Shown: in pieces, positions 6,293 through 21,493 of the stretch
Layout of the letters: each line of letters begins with the position of its first letter
Position numbering within the stretch: position 1 is the stretch's first letter
From: a virus
Reading direction: 5' to 3' (one strand)
Length of the DNA: 23,044 nucleotides
IMG/VR virus record: IMGVR_UViG_3300036826_000026
Location: 1 to 23,044 of that record
The notes under the pieces: model-generated
Databases searched by the model: none
What the model saw: only the letters and a program-made list of their open reading frames with translations
What the model was told of the DNA's origin: nothing
Made by a program: the position numbers and the translations under genes

Positions 6293-7444
6293 ATGGGGCT
6301 TTGGGACACACTCACGAATGTCTTTACTGGTCAACCGGCTATTGATGCTGCTGCACAACAGCGGCAGTATCTTCAGCAGATAATGAATGCCAATAATGCC
6401 CTGTACGAGGGCGCACAGAAACAGGGACTTGCGAGCCTACAAAGTGGACAACAACTTGGGACAGGCGCGATAACGTCTGGAGTTGGACAGGCTCGAAGCG
6501 ATATCTCGGGAGCTATTGATCCTGCCATAGCAGCGTTAATGGGCGGTACTGCTGGAGCCACGGGCGCACTTACGGCAGGACAAGGTGGAGCGCTTGGTGC
6601 CCTTCAGGGCGGTGTAGGAAGTGCGGTTGGCGCGTATGATCCGCTGGCGGCGGCCGCGGCTCGCTATGGAATGATCGGGGCTGGCGGCGCAAACATGAGT
6701 GCAGACGCCCTTGGGCTTAATGGACCAGAGGGTGTGGCGCGGGCCACAGCGGCGTTCCATACAGGGCCGGGATATAATTTTGCAGTCAATCAAGGATTGG
6801 ATGCACTTACTCGCGCCGCGAATGTGGGAGGAGGAGTCGCGGGCGGGAACGTGCTGCGCTCGGCGCAGACCTTTGGTCAGGGAATGGCTGATCAGGAATT
6901 CAAGGATTGGCTCACTCGAGTTGCGGGGCTCGGCAGCACGTATTCTCCGCTCGAGGCTAATGCGCTCGGACAGGTTGCCAGTGGAACTGGAAATGCTTAT
7001 CTCACTGGTGGCACTGGCGCGGCCAATATCTACACTGGAACTGGTCAGAGACTCTCTGATTTGTTGAGTGGGTATGGTACGAATGCAGCAAACATTTACA
7101 CTGGCGCTGGAAGGTCGCTGGCTGATCTTGCGGCCACGGGTGGAGCTAACCTTGCCAACATCTACACTGGAACATCGGGGCGCGAGGCTGATCTGTTAAA
7201 GGCTATTGCTCAGGGACAGACTGGCGCGCAGACTGGGATTGCTCAGCAGTACGCTCCGACGTATGCTACCGCAGCACAAGCCGAACTTGGTGGCTCAGCA
7301 AATCTGTGGAACCTAATTGGCAGCGCAGCGAAACTGATCGCCGGTGGGGGACTAAGTGGTCTCGGTGGACTAACTCCTGGGGCGTCTCTTCCTAACTTGA
7401 TGCCAGCTTCGGCTGCGGCTGGTCCCCGCGTAGGCCCGTTCTGA
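6293..7444 (+). CDS. Probable DNA-ejection / internal virion protein, Gly/Ala-rich
   Basis: The protein has 383 residues and is very rich in Gly, Ala, Gln and Thr. The N-terminal 130 residues are low-complexity helix with regular Gly. A recognisable central block (about 140-210) has DALGLNGPEGVARA, FHTGPGYNFAVNQGLDAL and GNVLRSAQTFGQGMADQEF. That block is common in phage proteins placed after the tail hub and annotated as ejection or tail proteins. Three 22-residue repeats follow (about 242-307), and a Gly/Leu-rich membrane-active-looking C-terminus (LWNLIGSAAKLIAGGGLSGL). P22 places ejection proteins gp7/gp20/gp16 at this genomic position. AGGAGG five bases upstream fixes the start. Confidence 0.62.
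   Translation: MGLWDTLTNVFTGQPAIDAAAQQRQYLQQIMNANNALYEGAQKQGLASLQSGQQLGTGAITSGVGQARSDISGAIDPAIAALMGGTAGATGALTAGQGGALGALQGGVGSAVGAYDPLAAAAARYGMIGAGGANMSADALGLNGPEGVARATAAFHTGPGYNFAVNQGLDALTRAANVGGGVAGGNVLRSAQTFGQGMADQEFKDWLTRVAGLGSTYSPLEANALGQVASGTGNAYLTGGTGAANIYTGTGQRLSDLLSGYGTNAANIYTGAGRSLADLAATGGANLANIYTGTSGREADLLKAIAQGQTGAQTGIAQQYAPTYATAAQAELGGSANLWNLIGSAAKLIAGGGLSGLGGLTPGASLPNLMPASAAAGPRVGPF
7016..7213 (+). repeat. Three 66-bp in-frame repeats (22-residue ANIYTG units)
   Basis: Three consecutive 22-residue units start at 7016, 7082 and 7148. Each begins with a variant of xAANIYTG followed by a polar segment ending in L-DL or EADL. The DNA of the units has drifted in third positions (for example aatatctacactgg, aacatttacactgg, aacatctacactgg), so selection appears to keep the peptide. 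A fourth weaker unit (GNAYLTGG) precedes them. Confidence 0.85.
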
Positions 7445-9311: not shown

Positions 9312-10529
9312 ATGGGATCGCTGTGGAATAGGTCTGGGGTTGTCGAGCGCTACGCGGACGATCTCAAAGCACCGGGGGCGCAAGCGTTCTTCTTCAGTGG
9401 GGGTACCACAACGCCCCTTGTGGTATATCAGGACGCTGGAGAGAGCGCGGCGCACGCTATTCCGGTTGTGGCTGATGCCAATGGTCGTTGGCCTGATGTA
9501 TTCGTGCCTTATATTCTGGGTTACGATGTGCAGGTCAAGACAGCGGATGGGGTTCAACTGACCTATTCTCAGAATATACCCAATCCAGATCCAGTCCAAC
9601 TTACTGTTACACCAGACCCTTCGGCCGATATTGTAACTGGAATGGTACACGCGGAGTTGGTCAATACAACGCGAACTGGCTATGTGAGGTTGAATGGAAA
9701 GACTATTGGCAACGCTTCTTCGTTGGGTACCGAGCGCGCGAATTCGGATACTTCGGATTTGTTTACTTACTTGTGGAACGGACTTACTGATGCTATTGCT
9801 TCGGTCTCAGGCGGGCGCGGTCCTGATCCAGCATCGGATTTTGCTGCGAACAAGACTATAGTGTTACCAAATTGTCAGGGTACTGTGTTGGTCGGACTGG
9901 ATGATATGGGGGCGACCGCAGGTGGATTTTTCACGGGGCTCTCGTTTGCTACTGGCGATGCTGTGACTCCGGGCTCGAATACAGGTATCAACTCGCTGGC
10001 ACTTGCGTTGTCGAATATCCCGGCTCATACTCACTCCGGGACGACAGCAACGGAGAGCGCTCACACTCACTCCGGCACGACGGGAACTGAGAGCGTTTCT
10101 CATACGCACTCGGCAACGACTAGTAGCGATGGGGCACATCAACATAGTGCGTTTATCGGAGACGATCAGCATACTCACGGATTGAACAATAATACTTCTA
10201 TCTACAGGTCTGCTGGTGGAGCAAATATCGCACTCGCGGCGCAAGCGGCATCGACTACCGTAACTATATCTATGGACTCAGCCTCTACTGGTGTTAGGGT
10301 TAGGAGTACTGCTGGTAGCGCGGCTAGTGCGGATGACAAGGTGGCCTCGGCCGGAGCACACACTCACACGGTTACTACCGGGAATGCCTCAGTAACACAT
10401 ACTCATAGTTTCACGAGTGGCGCCGGAACAGCTCATAGTCACACGTTCACTACTGACTCGCAGGGTGGAGGACAGGCGTTTAATAATCTGCCCCGCGCTA
10501 GAACAGTTACATGGTATATTAAGCTCTAG
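9312..10529 (+). CDS. Tail fibre / collar-like protein with His-x-His array
   Basis: This 405-residue protein probably forms the host-contacting fibre. Residues 1-105 are a beta-rich attachment domain (WNRSGVVERYADDLKAPGAQ, then FFFSGGTTTPLVVYQDAG, then PVVADANGRWPDVF), a common N-terminus of phage fibres. Residues 108-215 resemble a tail-collar domain (GYVRLNGKTIGNASSLGTER and VLPNCQGTVLVGLDDMGA). Eight His-x-His motifs follow: HTH at 239, 251, 264 and 287, HQH at 276, then HTH, HTH and HSH between about 349 and 379. In T4 gp37 such motifs bind iron along a trimeric needle. The C-terminus LPRARTVTWYIKL is typical of this family. GGAGGAGTGAG precedes the ATG. Confidence 0.75.
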   Translation: MGSLWNRSGVVERYADDLKAPGAQAFFFSGGTTTPLVVYQDAGESAAHAIPVVADANGRWPDVFVPYILGYDVQVKTADGVQLTYSQNIPNPDPVQLTVTPDPSADIVTGMVHAELVNTTRTGYVRLNGKTIGNASSLGTERANSDTSDLFTYLWNGLTDAIASVSGGRGPDPASDFAANKTIVLPNCQGTVLVGLDDMGATAGGFFTGLSFATGDAVTPGSNTGINSLALALSNIPAHTHSGTTATESAHTHSGTTGTESVSHTHSATTSSDGAHQHSAFIGDDQHTHGLNNNTSIYRSAGGANIALAAQAASTTVTISMDSASTGVRVRSTAGSAASADDKVASAGAHTHTVTTGNASVTHTHSFTSGAGTAHSHTFTTDSQGGGQAFNNLPRARTVTWYIKL

Positions 10530-10874: not shown

Positions 10875-12077
10875 ATGCAGATCGTAATCTCGAGCGGACA
10901 TGGAAAGTACGTTCGTGGTGCGAGCGGATATCTCGACGAGGTTGATGAGGCTCGGCATGTGGTCGAGCAGGTGGCGACACTTCTTGAACACGCTGGAGTT
11001 GGAGTTAAGACGTTTCATGACAACACCTCAACGTCGCAGGATCAAAATCTACGTACCATTGTCAACTACCACAACTCTCAGACGCGAGACCTCGACGTAT
11101 CGGTGCATTTTAATGCTTACGAGACAACCAAAAAGCCTATGGGCACGGAGTGTCTGTACGTTACTCAGCAGACTCTTGCCGACAAGGTGGCGACGGCGAT
11201 TGCACGAGCCGGAAGTCTGATTGATCGGGGACCTAAAAAGAGGACCGATCTATACTTTCTCAATAACACCGAGGAGCCCGCGATCCTCATAGAGACGTGT
11301 TTTGTGGACTCTCAGGCGGACGCCGATCTCTATTACGAGCACTTTGATAGCATTTGCACGGCGATTGCAGAGACTATCGGTGGGGTAGAAATCGGTGACC
11401 AGCCTCCCGATATCGAGGAGCCGCCCGAAGAGCTTCCACCCTCGTCGGGCGGCTTTCGTCAGGGTGTAGTACATAATTTGGTCGGGGCTGACAGATTGAA
11501 TATCAGAGCGAGTGCAAGCTCGAATGCGCCTGTAATCGGACAGGCCAAGAATGATGATGTTGTGACTGTTGTTGGCGAATCGTGGAGTGGTAGTACGAAG
11601 TGGCTCAAACTGCAATTTGGTATGGGAGTTGTGGTCTATGGATGGGCATCGAGCGTATATATTGAGGTTGAGGGCGGTGAAGTACCATCCTCTGAGTGGC
11701 ACGAGCAGATCACTGCAACAGTTTTTGGGCACGAGGGGGATGAGCAAGAGGGTTCCTACGGAGGCTGGATCGACAGCGATACTGTCGGCGTATCCTTTCC
11801 GTACAAGTGGCGAGACTCTCCACGTCCATCTATCCTTGTCGCAGGACCGCTAGGCGAGATGGTAGTGGATGTAGTCGATGTGGGTCCCTGGAATACCGAT
11901 GATCCAGACTACGTTCTCGGCACGTCGCGGCCTCTATCAGAGAAACAGTATCAGGAGGGTACGGAGGCTCAGAATGGACAGGTGCCCACTAATGATGCGG
12001 GCATAGATCTAACCAAGCCAGTAGCTGATCGGATCGGGATTAGTGGGAAGGGAAAGGTGCGCTGGCGTATCGCATAG
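10875..12077 (+). CDS. Endolysin: N-acetylmuramoyl-L-alanine amidase with SH3 and DPBB-like domains
   Basis: The protein has 400 residues in three domains. Residues 1-175 are an Amidase_3 (PF01520) zinc amidase: SSGHG with His9, Glu25, SVHFNA with His78, and ILIET with catalytic Glu140, all at expected spacing. Residues about 193-265 form a bacterial SH3 domain (LNIRASASSNAPVIG, then WLKLQFGMGVVVYGWAS). Residues about 275-400 match a double-psi-barrel-like domain related to RlpA/expansin proteins (YGGWIDSDTVGVSFPYKWRD, VDVVDVGPWNTDDPDYV, NDAGIDLTKPVADRIGI). It would cut the amide bond between MurNAc and the stem peptide to lyse the host. No signal peptide is visible, so it should rely on a holin. 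The triple architecture is unusual for an endolysin. Confidence 0.85.
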   Translation: MQIVISSGHGKYVRGASGYLDEVDEARHVVEQVATLLEHAGVGVKTFHDNTSTSQDQNLRTIVNYHNSQTRDLDVSVHFNAYETTKKPMGTECLYVTQQTLADKVATAIARAGSLIDRGPKKRTDLYFLNNTEEPAILIETCFVDSQADADLYYEHFDSICTAIAETIGGVEIGDQPPDIEEPPEELPPSSGGFRQGVVHNLVGADRLNIRASASSNAPVIGQAKNDDVVTVVGESWSGSTKWLKLQFGMGVVVYGWASSVYIEVEGGEVPSSEWHEQITATVFGHEGDEQEGSYGGWIDSDTVGVSFPYKWRDSPRPSILVAGPLGEMVVDVVDVGPWNTDDPDYVLGTSRPLSEKQYQEGTEAQNGQVPTNDAGIDLTKPVADRIGISGKGKVRWRIA

Positions 12078-12086
12078 GAGATTTGG

Positions 12087-12356
12087 ATGGGTGCTGTTGA
12101 AGAGGGCGGAAAGGTCGCGGGCGGAATAGTCCAGGCACTTGGTACACAGCCAGCGGTACTGGCGTTAATCGTTGCCAATGTAGCTATGCTGGCGTTTATG
12201 TTCTATGCGATGCACGCAGCAGCTACATTTAGAAATGATATGCTGAAAGAGGCATTTAAGTATCAGCGCGAGGTAAGTGATCTGCTGTCGAAATGTGTGA
12301 TACCGCAGCGCTCCAGTCTGCAAGACGGTATCATTGATCCAATGATAGAGAAATAG
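12087..12356 (+). CDS. Single-span membrane protein, holin or spanin candidate
   Basis: This 89-residue protein has one clear hydrophobic segment (PAVLALIVANVAMLAFMFYA, about 23-42) between a short glycine-rich N-terminus and a charged helical C-terminal tail (about 50-89). AGGAG lies before the ATG, nine bases after the endolysin stop. Position directly after a cytoplasmic amidase suggests a lysis membrane protein. One span with a C-terminal helix fits class III holins and also i-spanins; no embedded Rz1-type lipobox gene was found. It is the last gene of the + arm. Confidence 0.6.
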   Translation: MGAVEEGGKVAGGIVQALGTQPAVLALIVANVAMLAFMFYAMHAAATFRNDMLKEAFKYQREVSDLLSKCVIPQRSSLQDGIIDPMIEK

Positions 12357-12364
12357 GGAGAGTG

Positions 12365-13588
12365 TTAGCCTTCGAGACGGGCTTCGCGCGGCGCTGGCTT
12401 GTAGCCAGTAAATTTATTGCCTTCAACAGTGACCTCGATCATATGGGACTTTACCATTATTTCGAGGCAGCGCATGATCGAGTGAGCTGGAACTCGCTCG
12501 CGAAGAAAGTGGAGGATACGGTGCTCGGCAACGGGCCTGTTCTCTTTTGAATAAATAGTCCATACATAGTTTAGGGCTTCATTCATAGCAGCGGAGTCGC
12601 CGCCGCTAACCATTGACTTGAAGATATCGGGCATGTAGCTCTCGGCTTCGATGAGCCAGTTCAAGGCCTCGCTGTAGTGCTCGAGGGCTATCACTTTGTT
12701 GTTTGAGCGGGAGATACTGGCAATCATACATAGTTTTAGGAGGTGCGCTACTCGACGAGAATTGTAGAATTGGAGTTTCTGATGAGTGGGTTCAGGAGCA
12801 CACTTGTTCTTGATCCAGGCTTTTATGGCTTGCGCGGCCGGAGTCGTAAAAGACATCTGCCCGAACTGGAGTGCGATTGTCTTGAGGTCGTGGAGTAGGT
12901 CGTTGTAGAGTCGGCCTGTAAGAAGCGTGGTACTCTCATCTACGAATGGATCTTTAATGAGACGCTGACCAGAGTAGATAAGGATAGTTCGAGAGATGAA
13001 GCCTTGATCCCATCCTCCAGCAGGCATGATCTCATTCAGGTAGGATGGGGTACAAGCGCCTAATAGGTTTATCTGGGGCGAAGTAATTTTGATGTGAAGG
13101 TCTTTACCTCGTCGTTTCTGATCGACTGTGAAACCGTCGTAGATATCGGTTAGGTTATTCATGAGTGCTGTGTCCCATGCGGGAATGAGCACTCCAAGTT
13201 CGCGGGAGATCACTGTGAGAGAATTAAATTCTATGAATGGAGGATCTCCCATGAGAACGAGACGGCGCACGGACTCGTTGAGGGCGTCGATCATACTGGC
13301 TGTGGTCATGTCCGAGGGGCCGATCTTGAGATCGGGGACCGCGCGAAGTATTATTTCTCCGAGGTGGATGGCCTGACCTTTACCTATCCCCGGAGGACCG
13401 ACTAGAAGCGTAAAAAGGCTCGGATATAGGTCTGAGCCCATAGTCCGAACCCATATTTTACGTTCCATCGCTGCTGCGATAAAGGCTATCGCTACCCACT
13501 TACGGAAGATTTGTGGAGAGGGTAGGATCTCGGTGTATTCCTCGTATGCCTCTATCCAACTGCTAAGCCGCCTGTCTCCGGCGCCCAT
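12365..13588 (-). CDS. DUF3987-like P-loop ATPase, probable replicative helicase
   Basis: The protein has 407 residues. An N-terminal helical segment (WIEAYEEYTEILPSPQIFRK, then WVAIAFIAAAMERKIWVRT) precedes a Walker A loop GPPGIGKGQ at 64-72. FIEFNSLTVISRELGVLIP and INLLGACTPSYLNEIMP lie at 120-185, with a helical C-terminus. This layout fits phage and prophage ATPases of the DUF3987/YfjI group, which act as primase-helicase components. The position after lysine 70, normally Ser or Thr, is Gly, so Mg2+ coordination may differ. It overlaps the end of the polymerase by 26 bases, so the two are translationally coupled. No clear ribosome site precedes ATG 13588. Confidence 0.72.
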   Translation of the reverse strand: MGAGDRRLSSWIEAYEEYTEILPSPQIFRKWVAIAFIAAAMERKIWVRTMGSDLYPSLFTLLVGPPGIGKGQAIHLGEIILRAVPDLKIGPSDMTTASMIDALNESVRRLVLMGDPPFIEFNSLTVISRELGVLIPAWDTALMNNLTDIYDGFTVDQKRRGKDLHIKITSPQINLLGACTPSYLNEIMPAGGWDQGFISRTILIYSGQRLIKDPFVDESTTLLTGRLYNDLLHDLKTIALQFGQMSFTTPAAQAIKAWIKNKCAPEPTHQKLQFYNSRRVAHLLKLCMIASISRSNNKVIALEHYSEALNWLIEAESYMPDIFKSMVSGGDSAAMNEALNYVWTIYSKENRPVAEHRILHFLRERVPAHSIMRCLEIMVKSHMIEVTVEGNKFTGYKPAPREARLEG

Positions 13589-15053
13589 CTGGCCACTTCG
13601 ATAGTCCGTAGGGGTTATCTTTGTCGGCCTTACCCCAATTCCAGCCCACTTGTATTTCGACGGGAACTACGAACTTTCGACTGGCCTCGAGTTCGAGGGG
13701 GACACGCATAGCAGATAGAACCTGCGGTACGATCTCATTCTCTTTCTCCTCAGGATACTGTATAAGGATTGAGTCGTGGCCCTGTAAAAGGATCTGGATT
13801 AGGTTCAGCCGCCACAACGCAAGCATAGCGAAATTCATCTCGTCTGCGGTCATAGATTGACCGAGAAAGGCTACCGCCTGTTTGAGAGTGTCACGGTCGT
13901 CGCGCCTGCCGAAGAACCAACGCTTGCGGCCGAAAGGCGTAACGAGATTGCCGATTTCAAGGAGCTGCTGCGCGACCCACTCATGGAGGCGCTGGATCGC
14001 GGGGAACGTATTGAAGTAGAGAGCTTGAAAATCTTTGATTATAGACTGTTCTATCTTTGTGTGTTTTGCCATCTCGAAGGGTGAACCAAGGTAATTTGTA
14101 CCGTGGCCGAGCACCTTGCACATATGCCTGAGAGAGTGATGACGGTAATATGGCTGATCAGCAATGGCTCGATCCTTTTTAAGATCTCCAGTCCAGGGCA
14201 GTTCGGGTCTGGACATTCTGGAAACAGAGGTGTGAAGATCTCCTGACTCGCAGGCGTCAAGGTATTTAGGATCTCGAAAGACGTTCCAGCAGAGGGCTCC
14301 GACATTACGACTGTCCGCTTGTTCGAGGTCGATGTTCGCGAATTTCATACCTGGGTCGGCGATGAAGATGCGTCGTAAGCGTTCTTCAATATTCTGGAGA
14401 TTACCTCCAGTACCGAAATCATTGAGGCTGCTTGAGAAGCGCCCTGTTGTAGTTCCCCCGATGTTATAGGATGTTCTGATGCGTCGATCGCTGTCAACCT
14501 TTGTCTCAAGAACTCCGATCTTTTTTCCAAAGTCTCTAAGAGCAAGGATATGAGCAATAACTGGCCGGGCGATAAAGTGAACTTGGAGTCTTTCGAGGGC
14601 GTCTCTGTTGACCGTTCGAGCCATCTCGCCGCGGTCATTCCGCTTACGGATTTCAGGCAAGCGGAGGATGTCGTAAAGTAGAGCCGCGACAAGGCTGTTA
14701 GAGCGCCACGCTTTAGTTTTTGCGGTGTTACGAAAGTCTGCATATCCTATTCCCTCGTGAACGATACGATAGAGATTCCGCTCAAGGCGCTCACTGTCGG
14801 CACGGTAAGTGGTAATAGCTCGTTGGCGCTCTGTCTCGTCGATCAGCACTCCGCGAAGGTTCATCTCCAGCACGGGTGCTTGAAGTGATAGCGACAGGGC
14901 GTAGGTACCGCCGGTCAGATTATCTAACTGCGGTAGTGTTTGTTCGAGGACTTCAAGGGTCACACAACAGTCAAGACCATTGTAAATCCAGAGACGTTCA
15001 GTCTCGGACTTCGGTTCGCCGGGGCGGAGCCCTTGAGTGTTGTAGATTTTCAT
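13563..15053 (-). CDS. Family A DNA polymerase carrying only the last exonuclease motif
   Basis: I chose ATG 15053 (496 aa) because it overlaps the previous stop as ATGA; an upstream in-frame start at 15074 is less likely. The polymerase motifs are clear. Motif A is NIDLEQADSRNVG with Asp242. Motif B is RHMCKVLGHGTNYLG with Arg309, Lys313 and Tyr321. Motif C is GHDSIL with His426 and Asp427. TTGRFSS and NLQNI are also present. Residue 317, at the place of E. coli Phe762, is His, and the usual motif C HDE is HDS. The N-terminus has Exo III (YNGLD, Tyr24-Asp28) but no Exo I or II; those are on the UDG gene two positions upstream. It is shorter than complete exo-pol enzymes for that reason. Confidence 0.9.
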   Translation of the reverse strand: MKIYNTQGLRPGEPKSETERLWIYNGLDCCVTLEVLEQTLPQLDNLTGGTYALSLSLQAPVLEMNLRGVLIDETERQRAITTYRADSERLERNLYRIVHEGIGYADFRNTAKTKAWRSNSLVAALLYDILRLPEIRKRNDRGEMARTVNRDALERLQVHFIARPVIAHILALRDFGKKIGVLETKVDSDRRIRTSYNIGGTTTGRFSSSLNDFGTGGNLQNIEERLRRIFIADPGMKFANIDLEQADSRNVGALCWNVFRDPKYLDACESGDLHTSVSRMSRPELPWTGDLKKDRAIADQPYYRHHSLRHMCKVLGHGTNYLGSPFEMAKHTKIEQSIIKDFQALYFNTFPAIQRLHEWVAQQLLEIGNLVTPFGRKRWFFGRRDDRDTLKQAVAFLGQSMTADEMNFAMLALWRLNLIQILLQGHDSILIQYPEEKENEIVPQVLSAMRVPLELEASRKFVVPVEIQVGWNWGKADKDNPYGLSKWPDGRRRQAA

Positions 15054-15364
15054 CGGAGATGAGCGTTGAACCATTGGCCCTTGGAAGGGGCCAAAAGGAA
15101 GGCTACGAACTGTTCTTCGGAGCCGGGATAATCGTAGGAACCGCCCCGCACAAACTGAACAGTTATGATACCGCCAACGTGATAGCCTATAGCACGAATG
15201 GCGCTGCTCGCGACCGGAACTGTGATCTCTGTCTTGAGTTCGTCCATGAACTGTGCGCCCCCGCCTTCAGCTATGTCCTCGAGAAAGGCACTGGTGAAGA
15301 CGCGGCCCTCAGCAGCAGCGGTAGCGCGGAGAACTACGCCAATGCCTGCGATCAAGGGAGTCAT
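15050..15364 (-). CDS. KTSC-domain protein lying between the two halves of the polymerase
   Basis: The protein has 104 residues. The C-terminal half (about 52-104) contains SSAIRAIGYHVGGIITVQFV, then GGSYDYPG, an FLLAPSKGQWFN segment and a terminal HLR. This matches the KTSC domain (PF13619), first described at the C-terminus of some lysyl-tRNA synthetases and thought to bind RNA or nucleic acid. The N-terminal half is Ala/Gly-rich and unassigned. AAAGGAGG seven bases before the ATG is among the strongest ribosome sites in this arm, so it starts independently and then couples the polymerase by ATGA. It interrupts what in related phages would be one UDG-exo-pol reading frame. Confidence 0.8.
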   Translation of the reverse strand: MTPLIAGIGVVLRATAAAEGRVFTSAFLEDIAEGGGAQFMDELKTEITVPVASSAIRAIGYHVGGIITVQFVRGGSYDYPGSEEQFVAFLLAPSKGQWFNAHLR

Positions 15365-15388
15365 ATTAGTCCTCCTTTTCTATAGAAG

Positions 15389-16414
15389 CTAATCCTCTTT
15401 TTTAATTGTTCCTTTGTGTTTAAGTCGAATTCCGAGTTTCCAGGCAGACTCGTCTGTGTAGACTGAGCCCAGGTAGTCCAGAGATTTTGGGCTTTCGGGC
15501 ATGAGGGCGTGATGCAGTAGCATAGTATCATGCCGAGCATTAGTGACTGGAATACCATAGGTTTTCCACAGTCTGGACATATCGAAGATACCATTCTGAA
15601 AGACCTTCTCGATGGGGGAGGCGAGGACTTTGCGGACCCACTTCCACGCGGCCAGTTCAGCCTCGATTGATCCCCAGTAGTTACCACCTAGTTTGCGGAG
15701 GTCCTCGAACGGAACGACGAGGGCAATATCTATCGCCGGAGCAAACCCGATGCAAGTAATACGCTCTCCGCGTGTTTCGATATCAACAGCGAGTCTTCTT
15801 GCCGGGGCAATGTGCTCGATGTAGAAGCGGTCGAGGTCGCCGAGGATGGGTTCGGTGTAGATGGAGCGTTTGGGTCTGCGAATCTCGGGATACTCGGACT
15901 CTCGACGGGCTTTTTGGAGGTCGAGGACTGTGACGTGCCGCTCGCCGTATCCTCCTTGGAGAATGTAGGAAGGATGGAAGGTTGGGAGGACTTTTTTTCC
16001 TGCCAGTACGGGGGAATTTGCGACTGCCCCACGAAGTTTCGATATTCTACCGTCACGTAGTATTGCCCAACAGGCAGTTCCCCCGAGGCACACAATGACA
16101 TTTGGATTAACTTCAATAAGTTCTCGATAAAGTCTGTCGAGTTCGGGGAGAAATTCATCACGGACGTACTTGCCAGATGATAACGGCGGGAGCGCATGGC
16201 GGACCTCCTTGCGAGTGGCGCATAGGTTCTCGATCTTGTTCGTGGGTCGGGGACGCAAGTTAAACACGTTGGTTAGGTAGCACTCGGCTCGAACTATTCC
16301 GGCATCGGTCAGCATGGAGTTGAGCTGCCAACCAGCGGGACCGACAAAGGGCATCCGCTGGCGTTCTTCCGCTTCTCCCCAGGCCTCTCCAACCAGGGCG
16401 ATTTTGTGTTTCAT
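15389..16414 (-). CDS. Uracil-DNA glycosylase fused to a truncated 3'-5' exonuclease domain
   Basis: The protein has 341 residues. Residues 1-170 match the UDG superfamily: GEAWGEAEERQRMPFVGPAG at 9-28, YLTNVFNLRP at 46-55, VIVCLGG at 106-112 and the active-site loop PTFHPSYIL with HPS at 147-149. No four-Cys iron-sulfur set is evident. Residues 185-341 are a DnaQ-type proofreading fold: Exo I AVDIET (Asp211, Glu213) and Exo II FQNGIFDMSRLW (Asn274, Asp278). Then comes HDTMLLHHALMPESPKSLDY, and the chain ends at TIKKED before Exo III. The missing Exo III is at the N-terminus of the polymerase gene. UDG-polymerase fusions are known, for example in phage SPO1. Its ATG overlaps the upstream stop. 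Confidence 0.85.
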   Translation of the reverse strand: MKHKIALVGEAWGEAEERQRMPFVGPAGWQLNSMLTDAGIVRAECYLTNVFNLRPRPTNKIENLCATRKEVRHALPPLSSGKYVRDEFLPELDRLYRELIEVNPNVIVCLGGTACWAILRDGRISKLRGAVANSPVLAGKKVLPTFHPSYILQGGYGERHVTVLDLQKARRESEYPEIRRPKRSIYTEPILGDLDRFYIEHIAPARRLAVDIETRGERITCIGFAPAIDIALVVPFEDLRKLGGNYWGSIEAELAAWKWVRKVLASPIEKVFQNGIFDMSRLWKTYGIPVTNARHDTMLLHHALMPESPKSLDYLGSVYTDESAWKLGIRLKHKGTIKKED

Positions 16415-16752
16415 GCAATATCTCTTTGATTTAGTTCTTCAAGTCGGAGTTTTAGGAGTCTGTTCTCCTCTTTGAGGCTGTTTATTTCCGGGGCGCTTCT
16501 CCGCTCGGAGTCATGCCAGCCTCTCGTATAATCAATTCCCACTATTATGCGTTCCATCTTGGAAGTCCACTTATCGTAGTCGGACTGAGTGAATTCGTCT
16601 CCCGTAGCCATATATCTCGACACGAACTTTCTGTTGCAGAAAGCGGGTCTCACTGTTCCCATGTCATCTATTATAGCCTTTATAAGTCTTCCTCCCTTTT
16701 CTTTGAACTCCCTGATTATCCTTCCCTGCTTCCACGTATCAAAGGTAGTCAT
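16411..16752 (-). CDS. Hypothetical protein with C-terminal leucine-zipper-like helix
   Basis: The protein has 113 residues. The first 80 have WKQGRIIREFKEKGGRLIKA, IIDDMGTVRP and a segment with many aromatic and charged residues (SDYDKWTSKMERII). The last 30 (INSLKEENRLLKLRLEELNQ) form an obvious coiled coil with leucines at heptad spacing, so it probably oligomerises or binds a partner. GAGGAG eight bases before ATG 16752 supports the start. It overlaps the UDG-exo gene by ATGA. Function is unknown; coupling to UDG-polymerase suggests a replication accessory. Confidence 0.6.
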   Translation of the reverse strand: MTTFDTWKQGRIIREFKEKGGRLIKAIIDDMGTVRPAFCNRKFVSRYMATGDEFTQSDYDKWTSKMERIIVGIDYTRGWHDSERRSAPEINSLKEENRLLKLRLEELNQRDIA

Positions 16753-16753
16753 G

Positions 16754-17509
16754 TTACTTACTCCTCTTTAGGTTTATCACGTTCTTGTCAGTTCCCTTGG
16801 GCTTCGTTGGCTTTAATATGGTATCTATCCGAACGATCATATTACATAGGGCTTCCCTGATAACTGCGAGACAGGCTGGATTATTCTCATAGAATTTATT
16901 GAGATTAAACTTATTTAGGTCTCCGGCTATCGACCGGGCAAAGTCGAGGTTGTAGATTATTGACTCGGATGAAGGATACTTTACTGGTCCCTTTCTCTTA
17001 TAGAAGTCTTTGTCGGGCGCGGTTCTGACGGTGGCCTCGAATTCCTCCTCACTCATCTTACCTACGGCTCTGATGTTTTTGGCGAGATTTTTGTCGATGT
17101 TCTGAGAGGCTAGTGTTGGCACAGTTTCGGAAATCGGGGTATTTTTTACCCCGATTTTTGTTGAGGGGCGTCCTGTTGCCAGTGTAGGCACAGTTTCAGC
17201 CGACGCGGGGTAATTTTTACCCTGCGTTGCACCGGGGTAATTTTTACCCCGGTGCTCCAGTGGAACACTTGTATCTCCACCGCCTCTAGCTAATCCCACT
17301 GTGCGACGCTGTTCTTCTATCATTTCGGCCAGGCGCCGTTCGGCCCGGCGCTGGATTTCTATGGCATCGAGTTCGAGTGTTTTGTCCTTGGCGAGACGGG
17401 CATATTCTCGCATAGCCTTACCCTTGTCACGGATGTCTTTGACTTCATCAACGGCCTTTGCCTCAGCAAGGGCGCGCTTTGCTGCCTCATACTTAACGAG
17501 TTCAGTCAT
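16754..17509 (-). CDS. Conserved phage protein with internal GKNYP/ETVPTLA repeats
   Basis: The protein has 251 residues. The N-terminal helical domain ([20 protein letters not shown], then [20 protein letters not shown], then [16 protein letters not shown]) and the later [20 protein letters not shown] segment are typical of a prophage protein family of unknown function found near ParB-type and replication genes. The central linker (about 75-140) carries GKNYP twice and SETVPTLA or AETVPTLA twice, an internal duplication. Its DNA holds three near-perfect palindromes (17131-17255). The start overlaps the previous stop (ATGA). A DNA-binding or partition-linked role is only inferred. Confidence 0.7.
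17131..17255 (+). repeat. Cluster of three GGGGTAA/TTACCCC palindromes inside a CDS
   Basis: Palindrome 1 is AAATCGGGGTA-TTTTT-TACCCCGATTT (17131-17157, 11-base perfect arms). Palindrome 2 is ACGCGGGGTAA-TTT-TTACCCTGCGT (17203-17227, one mismatch). Palindrome 3 is GCACCGGGGTAA-TTT-TTACCCCGGTGC (17229-17255, 12-base perfect arms). Centres of 2 and 3 are 27 bases apart; 1 is about 71 bases from 2. A flanking direct repeat AGTGTWGGCACAGTTTC occurs at 17112-17128 and 17181-17197 (69-base period). On the coding (-) strand palindromes 2 and 3 read GKNYP. Confidence 0.9.
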
Positions 17510-18053: not shown

Positions 18054-18149
18054 TCATTTTCCGATCCACATAAAGAGGAACAAGAATATCAAGACCACAA
18101 TCACAAAGATGGTGACGTTTATAGCGATGTCTCGGCTTTTAGTTTCCAT
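18054..18149 (-). CDS. 31-residue single-span membrane peptide
   Basis: ATG 18149 opens a 31-codon frame ending in TGA at 18054-18056. It has a polar N-terminus METKSRDIAIN, a strongly hydrophobic segment TIFVIVVLIFLFLFMWIG (about 13-30) and a final Lys, a typical small transmembrane peptide. GGAG lies seven bases before the ATG, inside the end of the ParB-methylase gene, whose TAA stop lies within the first codons (11-base overlap). The next gene starts 19 bases after its stop, so it fills what would otherwise be a gap. Function is unknown; small phage membrane peptides can act in lysis control, exclusion or membrane anchoring of replication. Confidence 0.6.
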   Translation of the reverse strand: METKSRDIAINVTIFVIVVLIFLFLFMWIGK

Positions 18150-19443
18150 AAGCATCTCCGACAGCCTTCAAGCGGCGGGCTCGTCGAAGGGCGTCTCGGG
18201 CCAGAGCTGCGAACTCTGGATTGATCTCGAGCCCGAGACAATGCCTTGTACCAAGCGATTCAGCCGCTCGCAATGCACTTCCACTACCACAGGTGGGGTC
18301 GAGCATAACAGTGTTCTGGTCAACAAGCATCGAGAAGAAGTGACGCAGCATCGGTTCGGGTTTTTCAGACATGTGACGGTCCCGTACTGTCGGAGAGTGG
18401 TAAGCATTAGCAACAGCTCGAACAATTTTACGGTCTCCGCGGCTCCCAAGTAGACAGGTTTCGTAGATCTGTCGCGGTCCTCGTTCAGGATCTGGAAGGA
18501 TACCAACTCCATCGGACTTCATCCATATGAGGGGTTGTGGATTGATCTCCCACCCGATCATTTCGAGGGCTCGAGCGGTGGACTCGTAGAGGCGCTGACT
18601 GCCTTTTCTCATGGCAAACCAGAACATAAGATGGGCGCTCTGTGCCGTGAGTCGCTTAGTGGCGATCTCCAAAGACGACATGAGCTGTTGCCATGTTTCA
18701 TAGGTGTCAGTGTATCCCCCATGAGAACTTGCGCCGCCCTGATTAAACGAGTCTGACTCTATGCCGTAGGGGAAATCACAGTGGAAAAAATTGAACCTAA
18801 TAGCCATATCGAGGTGGACCCATTCACGAAAATCCGCAGTTAGGATGGTTTCCTCCTGTTTCTCAGCGACCTGAACTCCACCGAGGGAACTATGGAGCTT
18901 GTCAAGTATGCTTTGGTCGCGGCGCTCGATTGCTCGCCGGACTATCCCTGCGGCCGTAGAGAGCTTTGGTGCCTCTAAGACCATTTTATTGCCGAGGGAA
19001 AGTTCCTCGCCGAGTTGGAGCATAGTACCAGTGTGCTGTGGGGATAGGCCTATGGATCTGGCGGTGTCCTCTTGTGTCCATTCGAGGTTACCGGAGAGGC
19101 GGAGGGCGTGATACTCGCGGATTGCCGAGACTTGATCTTGCCAAGAGATGTCCTGGCGCTTTATGTTCTCTTCGAGTTCAATCTCTCGGAGACGGCCCGG
19201 CTCGAGTTCGTCGAGGTACTGGACCGGGATTGTTTGCCAACCGAGCTTGGTGCAAGCGGCGTAGCGCCGCTCGCCGGTGACAAGCTCCAACCCCTCGCGA
19301 GTGACCACGAGGGGATGGATGAGGCCGAGACGACGGATCGAGTCAGCGAGTTCGTCGATCTTTGTGAGTTCGCGCCGCTGCCGTTTTTCCCGACTGACAG
19401 TTATGCTGTCAAGCGGAATAATGTGGAAAGTGCCAGAAGTCAT
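18139..19443 (-). CDS. ParB-domain / adenine-specific DNA methyltransferase fusion
   Basis: The protein has 434 residues. The N-terminal ParB/Spo0J-like domain (about 5-100) has IPLDSITVS, an LADSIRRLGLIHPLVV segment and GERRYAA (57-63). A helix-turn-helix-like stretch follows (WTQEDTARSIGLSPQHTG, about 122-139). The C-terminal DNA methylase (N6_N4_Mtase type) has motif IV as CDFPYG (223-227, DFPY in place of DPPY) and later motif I MLDPTCGSGSA (380-390) with LEINPEF. The order IV then I indicates the beta class. Such fusions are common in phages and may modify phage DNA against host restriction. Start ATG overlaps the upstream stop. The last 11 bases encode the start of a membrane peptide. 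Confidence 0.87.
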   Translation of the reverse strand: MTSGTFHIIPLDSITVSREKRQRRELTKIDELADSIRRLGLIHPLVVTREGLELVTGERRYAACTKLGWQTIPVQYLDELEPGRLREIELEENIKRQDISWQDQVSAIREYHALRLSGNLEWTQEDTARSIGLSPQHTGTMLQLGEELSLGNKMVLEAPKLSTAAGIVRRAIERRDQSILDKLHSSLGGVQVAEKQEETILTADFREWVHLDMAIRFNFFHCDFPYGIESDSFNQGGASSHGGYTDTYETWQQLMSSLEIATKRLTAQSAHLMFWFAMRKGSQRLYESTARALEMIGWEINPQPLIWMKSDGVGILPDPERGPRQIYETCLLGSRGDRKIVRAVANAYHSPTVRDRHMSEKPEPMLRHFFSMLVDQNTVMLDPTCGSGSALRAAESLGTRHCLGLEINPEFAALARDALRRARRLKAVGDAYGN

Positions 19444-20882: not shown

Positions 20883-21113
20883 TTATTCGCAGGCAGTGTC
20901 GATGTTACCGAGCGCGGACTCGATAGAGTCTTTGGCCTCGTTCAAGGCCCCTATGGCCGCCCCCATTTTCTCTCCTTTCTCGCCTTGTTGCATTCCCTCC
21001 GGTAGGTTATCTAAGGCTTCCTGCTCCTCATCCATGATCTCCTCAACTATTGCGCAGGCATCGCTGAGTGCAGAAGCAGCCACTTGCAGTTTCTTCCGAC
21101 GTTCATCGTTCAT
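20883..21113 (-). CDS. Small conserved acidic phage protein, MNDxRRK type
   Basis: The 76 residues start MNDERRKKLQVAASALSDAC and continue with EEIMDEEQEALDNLPEGMQQ and a C-terminal helix AIGALNEAKDSIESALGNID. This is a frequent conserved phage and prophage hypothetical (pattern RRK-L--A------A---IE-I-DEEQEA-DNLPE--Q-G--G), helical and acidic, with no known function. It starts within the HNH gene's stop (ATGA). It has neither a membrane segment nor catalytic residues. Confidence 0.75.
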   Translation of the reverse strand: MNDERRKKLQVAASALSDACAIVEEIMDEEQEALDNLPEGMQQGEKGEKMGAAIGALNEAKDSIESALGNIDTACE

Positions 21114-21493
21114 TTGCGGACTCCTATGGGACCGGGAAAGTTTCTGAGAAGGCTCACCGCTCGATCCGGTCTTCGTCGAGCGTGATAGCGTCTTGCGTTA
21201 TCAAGATGCGTTCCGTCTATGAGGTTCCATATACTGTTATTGCTCTTGTTCTCATCAAAGTGATCCAGAACATTAGGCCACTTGCCGTAGGCATAGAACC
21301 AGGCAAGCCTATTTGCTCTATACATCCTTCCTTCCACTTGAATATACCGATAGCCTCTATCATTTACGTTCCCGGCGAGTCCTCCGGTCCTCCAAAAGAA
21401 CAGACCGGAGCAAGGATCGTATGAAAGTAACTCTCTGAGCCTCTCAACAGAAAGGTTATAATTTCGCCGTCTGCCTCTATAATATCTTCTCAT
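21110..21493 (-). CDS. HNH homing-type endonuclease
   Basis: The 127 residues include LLSYDPCSGLFFWR, GYRYIQVEGRMYRANRLAWF, YAYGKWPNVLDHFD (Asp77-His78) and NKSNNSIWNLIDGTHLDNAR. This is the standard phage HNH order: YDP-TGLF-WR, a GYR-I-V-G--Y--HRLAW strand pair, IDH--------N-IWNLR--T---N. The usual His before RLAW is Asn61 here; that position is generally structural, so activity may persist. Both ends overlap neighbours by ATGA (with the ATPase and with the MNDxRRK gene), unusual neatness for a mobile endonuclease. It nicks or cuts DNA at a target that is probably elsewhere. Confidence 0.82.
   Translation of the reverse strand: MRRYYRGRRRNYNLSVERLRELLSYDPCSGLFFWRTGGLAGNVNDRGYRYIQVEGRMYRANRLAWFYAYGKWPNVLDHFDENKSNNSIWNLIDGTHLDNARRYHARRRPDRAVSLLRNFPGPIGVRK

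Follow-up and report, generated by a model that had tools for sequence, protein, structure and literature searches.

How might a family A DNA polymerase proofread when the motifs of its 3'-5' exonuclease are encoded by two separate genes? This question is raised by a 23,044-base virus record (IMG/VR IMGVR_UViG_3300036826_000026, the whole of which is called the window here). On its minus strand, in order of transcription, lie a UDG-exonuclease (UDG-exo) gene, a KTSC gene, a family A polymerase gene and a DUF3987/primase-like gene (Table 1). An earlier note on this stretch had placed Exo I (Asp211, Glu213) and Exo II (Asn274, Asp278) in the UDG gene, which ends in TIKKED, and Exo III (YNGLD) at residues 24-28 of the polymerase gene, with a KTSC gene preceded by its own ribosome-binding-like AAAGGAGG between the halves. 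All of these features were confirmed. The Exo III numbering counts from the ATG at 15053; an alternative in-frame start at the upstream ATG at 15074 would give a polymerase of 503 amino acids (aa), with YNGLD at residues 31-35. Comparison with relatives and structure prediction indicate that the two genes probably encode a two-subunit family A replicative polymerase that derives from one ancient fission and has its 3'-5' exonuclease site shared between the chains.

Position of the break

In the window, the exonuclease and polymerase parts are on separate open reading frames (ORFs), in different frames and with another gene between, rather than on one polypeptide. The acidic residues of Exo I, II and III are all present, spread over the two chains. 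Pfam recognized UDG at residues 4-154 (E 4.8e-20) and DNA_pol_A_exo1 at residues 205-319 (E 3.6e-5) of the UDG-exo gene product. PHROG 17, a single-chain DNA polymerase profile covering UDG, exonuclease and polymerase in that order, is matched by the two genes jointly; the UDG gene covers profile positions 480-789 and the polymerase gene 804-1237, which places the break independently.

The same split was then sought in relatives, as the earlier note had proposed, and it recurs widely. Scans of IMG/VR and phage collections gave 303 loci with both halves, comprising 161 non-identical split pairs and 81 intact proteins, with three special cases set aside; since the queries were chosen, these counts are not frequencies. 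The split representatives formed 47 clusters under 62% polymerase identity and include the isolated, plaque-forming Caulobacter podophage Kuura (OQ067476; gp29/gp26). Loci where only one half was detected all end near the gene, and a single-protein scan of genome contigs for relatives found none, which left the virus with no assigned host.

Alignment with single-chain homologues, including those of Microcystis phage Mel-JY34, MW202489, a Desulfofustis phage, archaeal virus vir526 and SPO1, located the break in the loop that follows the conserved Trp-Lys closing the Exo II subdomain and precedes the Exo III helix. This bears out the expectation that the chain is broken within one loop between Exo II and Exo III. 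The intact proteins join these two elements by a short loop, for example HWKDEGKEWDLASGNENWVYNGKD, whereas both sides of the break carry extended ends in the split proteins. The UDG-exo chain mostly ends 12-15 residues past the Trp-Lys, usually with K[KR][DE][DE], and the split polymerases begin with a short M-K-x-I-x-T-D-like lead. No extra domain is present where the halves meet in the alignment. Individual residues around the break were inspected in 49 split pairs, and motif columns in all 161; the same single loop is broken in all aligned split pairs.

The catalytic residues of both sets of motifs are retained across the clade. Asp and Glu of Exo I are present in 160 of the 161 split pairs (with one gap), Asn of Exo II in 161/161 and its Asp in 160/161, while Tyr and Asp of Exo III were found in all 158 split pairs with sequence at that position. 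The polymerase catalytic aspartates are equally constant where the motif is present (motif A, 153/153; motif C, 144/144). A tail of the K[KR][DE][DE] type was found in 127 to 132 of the 161 pairs, depending on the pattern used.

The single-chain UDG-exo-pol proteins (SPO1 gp31; Microcystis phage Mel-JY34, Desulfofustis phage and vir526) have the same domains, domain order and exonuclease motifs, and the podo-like members also share the downstream DUF3987/primase gene. Theirs is one polypeptide, however, and the window enzyme is cut between Exo II and Exo III. Kuura gp29/gp26 has the same split in the same loop (38%/36% identity to the window proteins), although the genes in its slot differ from the KTSC gene of the window. 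The Kuura genome paper mentions neither an exonuclease nor a glycosylase, nor the split (PMC9959647).

One fission, and selection since

In a polymerase tree of 71 representatives, one branch divides split from intact proteins (Shimodaira-Hasegawa-like approximate likelihood ratio test 100, one change). When more distant UDG-exo-pol phages were added, the split clade (100) was nested among unbroken chains and the outgroups were unbroken; the rooting of these trees is approximate, with long branches and a named outgroup that does not form one side of a branch. Given this nesting, an unbroken ancestor is the simplest reading, with the split as the derived state from one fission. The proposal that a single ancestral chain had been broken is thus supported by the loop alignment and the polymerase trees together.

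Selection since the fission was estimated as the ratio of nonsynonymous to synonymous substitution rates (dN/dS), using medians over 22 pairs among 18 close relatives. The exonuclease core (0.060), the Exo III helix (0.030) and the C-terminal tail of the UDG-exo chain (0.000) compare with 0.069 for the UDG domain and 0.078 for the remaining polymerase sequence. By this measure, both pieces are under strong purifying selection. The evolutionary distances of the two halves are also correlated (Mantel r 0.68, permutation maximum 0.26); such a correlation is expected for linked genes, and it adds weakly to the case.

A probable proofreading site formed by two chains

In the arrangement we propose, the first subunit would comprise a UDG-like domain and an exonuclease core carrying Exo I and Exo II, and the second would begin with the Exo III helix and continue into thumb, palm and fingers. 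That helix, at the polymerase N-terminus, would pack back against the core in the UDG-exo chain, and D211, E213 and D278 of the first chain would form, with Y24 and D28 of the second, one two-metal DEDD proofreading site.

Structure predictions were made for a relative, L013 (84%/81% identical to the window proteins), whose halves are in frame, so that reading through the stops tethers them as a single chain with the roughly 100-residue spacer as linker. In-frame read-through rows of split loci took the place of an alignment in which the halves were unpaired and no rows bridged them; that alignment had placed polymerase sequences on the UDG half and was set aside. With an alignment including intact homologues, AlphaFold2 gave a predicted local distance difference test score (pLDDT) of 87 and a predicted template modelling score (pTM) of 0.85, the linker scoring below 50 (disordered). 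With 29 rows from split loci only, the values were pLDDT 83 and pTM 0.77. For both models, superposition on the large fragment of Pol I (8oo6, 604 aa) spans about 772 columns, at a target template modelling (TM) score of 0.78-0.79, an extent that needs the exonuclease and polymerase parts in one frame, whereas matches to the polymerase part only (KlenTaq, 477 columns) reach a TM score of about 0.64. The halves are thus modelled as a Klenow-like exonuclease-polymerase body, which is consistent with assembly but is not proof of it.

Motif retention, selection and the tethered models all favor the suggestion of the earlier note that a working exonuclease needs both proteins, while the assembly itself is what we infer from them. 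Three points temper this reading. AlphaFold2 knows Pol I folds, and the halves were tethered by the read-through spacer. A search for another DEDD exonuclease with PF01612 and PF00929, covering the window record and those of 12 relatives (Kuura among them), found none beyond the UDG-exo gene; this favors the shared site but is a moderate test of absence, given that PF01612 misses the known subunit in 6 of the 13 records. Finally, part of the constraint on the C-terminal tail could be explained by a ribosome-binding sequence for the next gene, as a Shine-Dalgarno-like word lies inside 91 of 127 tails of the K[KR][DE][DE] type. That the tail is a ribosome-binding site only is partly possible; weighing against it, the Arg codon is CGN in 24 of 65 cases, and synonymous change in the tail is frequent (proportion of synonymous differences 0.41 vs. 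0.012 for nonsynonymous). The tail may serve the protein and translation of the next gene alike.

The fission might also have made proofreading switchable, with docking of the UDG-exo subunit completing the active site, though we regard this extension as rather doubtful. Were it true, the polymerase subunit alone, without Exo I and II, would copy without proofreading, and fidelity could follow the subunit ratio or a ligand of the UDG-like domain, such as template uracil. The gap, freed from coding constraint, would have become a slot for cargo.

The UDG-exo protein could instead act independently of the polymerase, in a role such as uracil repair, with another partner or with no third motif. 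Phages do have stand-alone exonuclease subunits: in the LUZ24 group and phiEco32, the proofreading exonuclease and the family A polymerase are likewise in separate genes (PMC3517423). However, LUZ24 gp25 and phiEco32 gp74 are complete exonucleases with their own Exo III (YCLQD and YCEQD in our translations), whereas the window has no such self-contained subunit with three motifs, and its Exo III is on the polymerase chain, as it is, under strong selection, in every split pair. We therefore judge a separate role to be very unlikely.

It is also highly improbable that the exonuclease is a relic, proofreading having ended with the fission and the pieces persisting for their UDG and polymerase functions only. 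Exonuclease loss has a precedent among phage PolA proteins, as all three catalytic aspartates are replaced in divPolA1 (PMC11348598). In the split enzymes, by contrast, the catalytic residues are kept across 161 diverse pairs, and the exonuclease core and Exo III helix are selected as strongly as the UDG and polymerase parts or more so. A dead exonuclease would not look this way.

If the shared site is real, a replicative polymerase can tolerate a split catalytic domain through long spans of evolution. It would also provide a natural two-part system for the coupling of exonuclease and polymerase sites and for fidelity tuning by subunit binding. Kuura has been isolated and its host is in culture, which makes the claim directly testable. 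Gene-by-gene annotation calls one half hypothetical, as for Kuura gp29, and would list the polymerase as one without proofreading.

We found no published case, in the open-licence literature, of the three motifs of a family A exonuclease divided between two proteins. The other divided phage polymerases compared here differ in where they are cut. The replicative polymerase of T4-like Aeromonas phages 25/44RR is likewise fissioned, into gp43A and gp43B, and the phage 25 halves co-purify with polymerase activity (PMC2988022), a precedent for working reassembly; this enzyme, however, belongs to family B, has a different break and is tied to a homing endonuclease or an untranslated insert. In the OM43 phages MEP401/402, two ORFs separated by a small gene likewise encode a family A polymerase (PMC10580990), but there the break is inside the polymerase domain and the exonuclease domain is whole. 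Further breaks were observed in related polymerases: inside the polymerase domain, with a 184-aa ORF, in Vibrio phage ABTNL-3 (L006); immediately past Exo III, with a zinc-ribbon (NrdR-like) ORF, in MW202554 (L008); and in Youna2 (L322) as two polymerase coding sequences with an ORF between.

Genes in the gap and other features of the window

The gap between the halves (15050-15389 in the window) is variable in content. Among 158 split loci, it holds no ORF in 16, one in 73, two in 34 and three or more in 35 (range 0-6), for a total of 272 ORFs in about 160 sequence groups, 142 of them singletons. The commonest gap genes are of the DUF7768 type (30 loci), followed by KTSC (about 23), HNH endonucleases (11 and 4) and MazG-like genes (9). 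The MazG label and that of the second HNH group come from sequence features. Ligase-like genes also occur. The Kuura gap holds two unrelated genes and no KTSC.

The earlier note had suggested that the KTSC protein might help the halves to assemble, and this was not supported. The KTSC gene does lie exactly between the halves with its stop overlapping the polymerase start, and a DNA-binding role has been ascribed to the KTSC domain (PMC9503650), both of which would suit a factor that the operon keeps for assembly or regulation of the split enzyme. Yet KTSC-family genes are present at only about 23 of the 158 split loci, the others having DUF7768, HNH, MazG-like or unidentified genes or none. 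In L069, whose proteins are 77%/73% identical to those of the window, there is no gene between at all, and the polymerase start overlaps the UDG-exo stop. Such a factor has very little probability on these data; given its limited occurrence and the variable gap content, we judge the genes between the halves, KTSC here, to be interchangeable cargo. By analogy with the mobile endonuclease insertion discussed for T4-like gene 43 (PMC2988022), the HNH genes at some loci would fit an origin of the split by insertion of a mobile endonuclease.

Rejoining of the frames into one chain at the RNA or protein level, by an intron, a programmed frameshift or a split intein, is scarcely credible. Gene 31 of SPO1 carries an intron, introns have been reported in the polymerase genes of LUZ24 and other phages (PMC3517423, PMC10580990), and where the two halves directly adjoin, the polymerase gene invariably occupies the -1 frame. 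Against this, no Rfam intron family was found at E<=1 in window positions 12000-17000, and an intron between the halves was rejected. A programmed -1 frameshift was likewise rejected, as whole genes lie between the halves at most loci, their number varying freely from 0 to 6. Adjacent pairs mostly meet in ordinary overlaps of stop and start codons (ATGA, TAATG) that have no slippery sequence in common, and the absence of an extra domain at the alignment junction also speaks against rejoining. Chance, assembly error and sequencing frameshift were rejected, since the split recurs in many assemblies and one isolate.

Table 1. Positions of the split polymerase genes, their motifs and adjoining features in the window.
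Feature	Position	Strand	Description
UDG-exo subunit gene	15389..16414	-	341 aa; UDG-superfamily domain and N-terminal part of DEDD 3'-5' exonuclease; ends TIKKED
Exo I, D211-I-E213	15776..15784	-	In UDG-exo gene
Exo II, N274-G-I-F-D278	15581..15595	-	In UDG-exo gene
Conserved C-terminal tail TIKKED	15392..15409	-	Directly before stop of UDG-exo gene; K[KR][DE][DE] consensus in split subunits
AAAGGAGG, ribosome-binding-site-like sequence of KTSC gene	15371..15378	-	
KTSC-domain gene, slot between halves	15050..15364	-	104 aa; Pfam KTSC E 1.9e-8; judged variable cargo, outside enzyme
ATGA overlap, KTSC stop with polymerase start	15050..15053	-	
Family A DNA polymerase subunit	13563..15053	-	496 aa; Pfam DNA_pol_A E 1.7e-28; opens with Exo III helix
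Exo III, Y24-N-G-L-D28	14970..14984	-	On polymerase chain
DUF3987/primase-helicase-like gene	12365..13588	-	Directly downstream of polymerase; also after unbroken polymerase in related phages

Additional features of the two subunits were observed. In the RHMCKVLGHGTNYLG of the window polymerase (13563-15053), the residue that corresponds to Phe762 of E. coli Pol I is His, as it is in 138/138 split and 53/53 intact relatives where the motif was found; published phage surveys give Phe, Tyr or Leu. UDG motif 1 (16350-16414 in the window) reads GEAWG in 101 of 161 split proteins and, when found, mostly GEAPG in intact ones, and the N-terminal cysteines of MW202554 seem absent. Uracil excision may be altered.

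Elsewhere in the window, two genes on the plus strand with no Pfam match likely encode structural proteins, one with HTHSGTT-type histidine-rich repeats (9312-10529) and one with NIYTG repeats (6293-7444). On the minus strand, a free-standing HNH_3 endonuclease gene (21110-21493) is of a possible type of gene-splitting agent, and the gene at 18139-19443 fuses a ParB N-terminal domain to an N6/N4 DNA methyltransferase.

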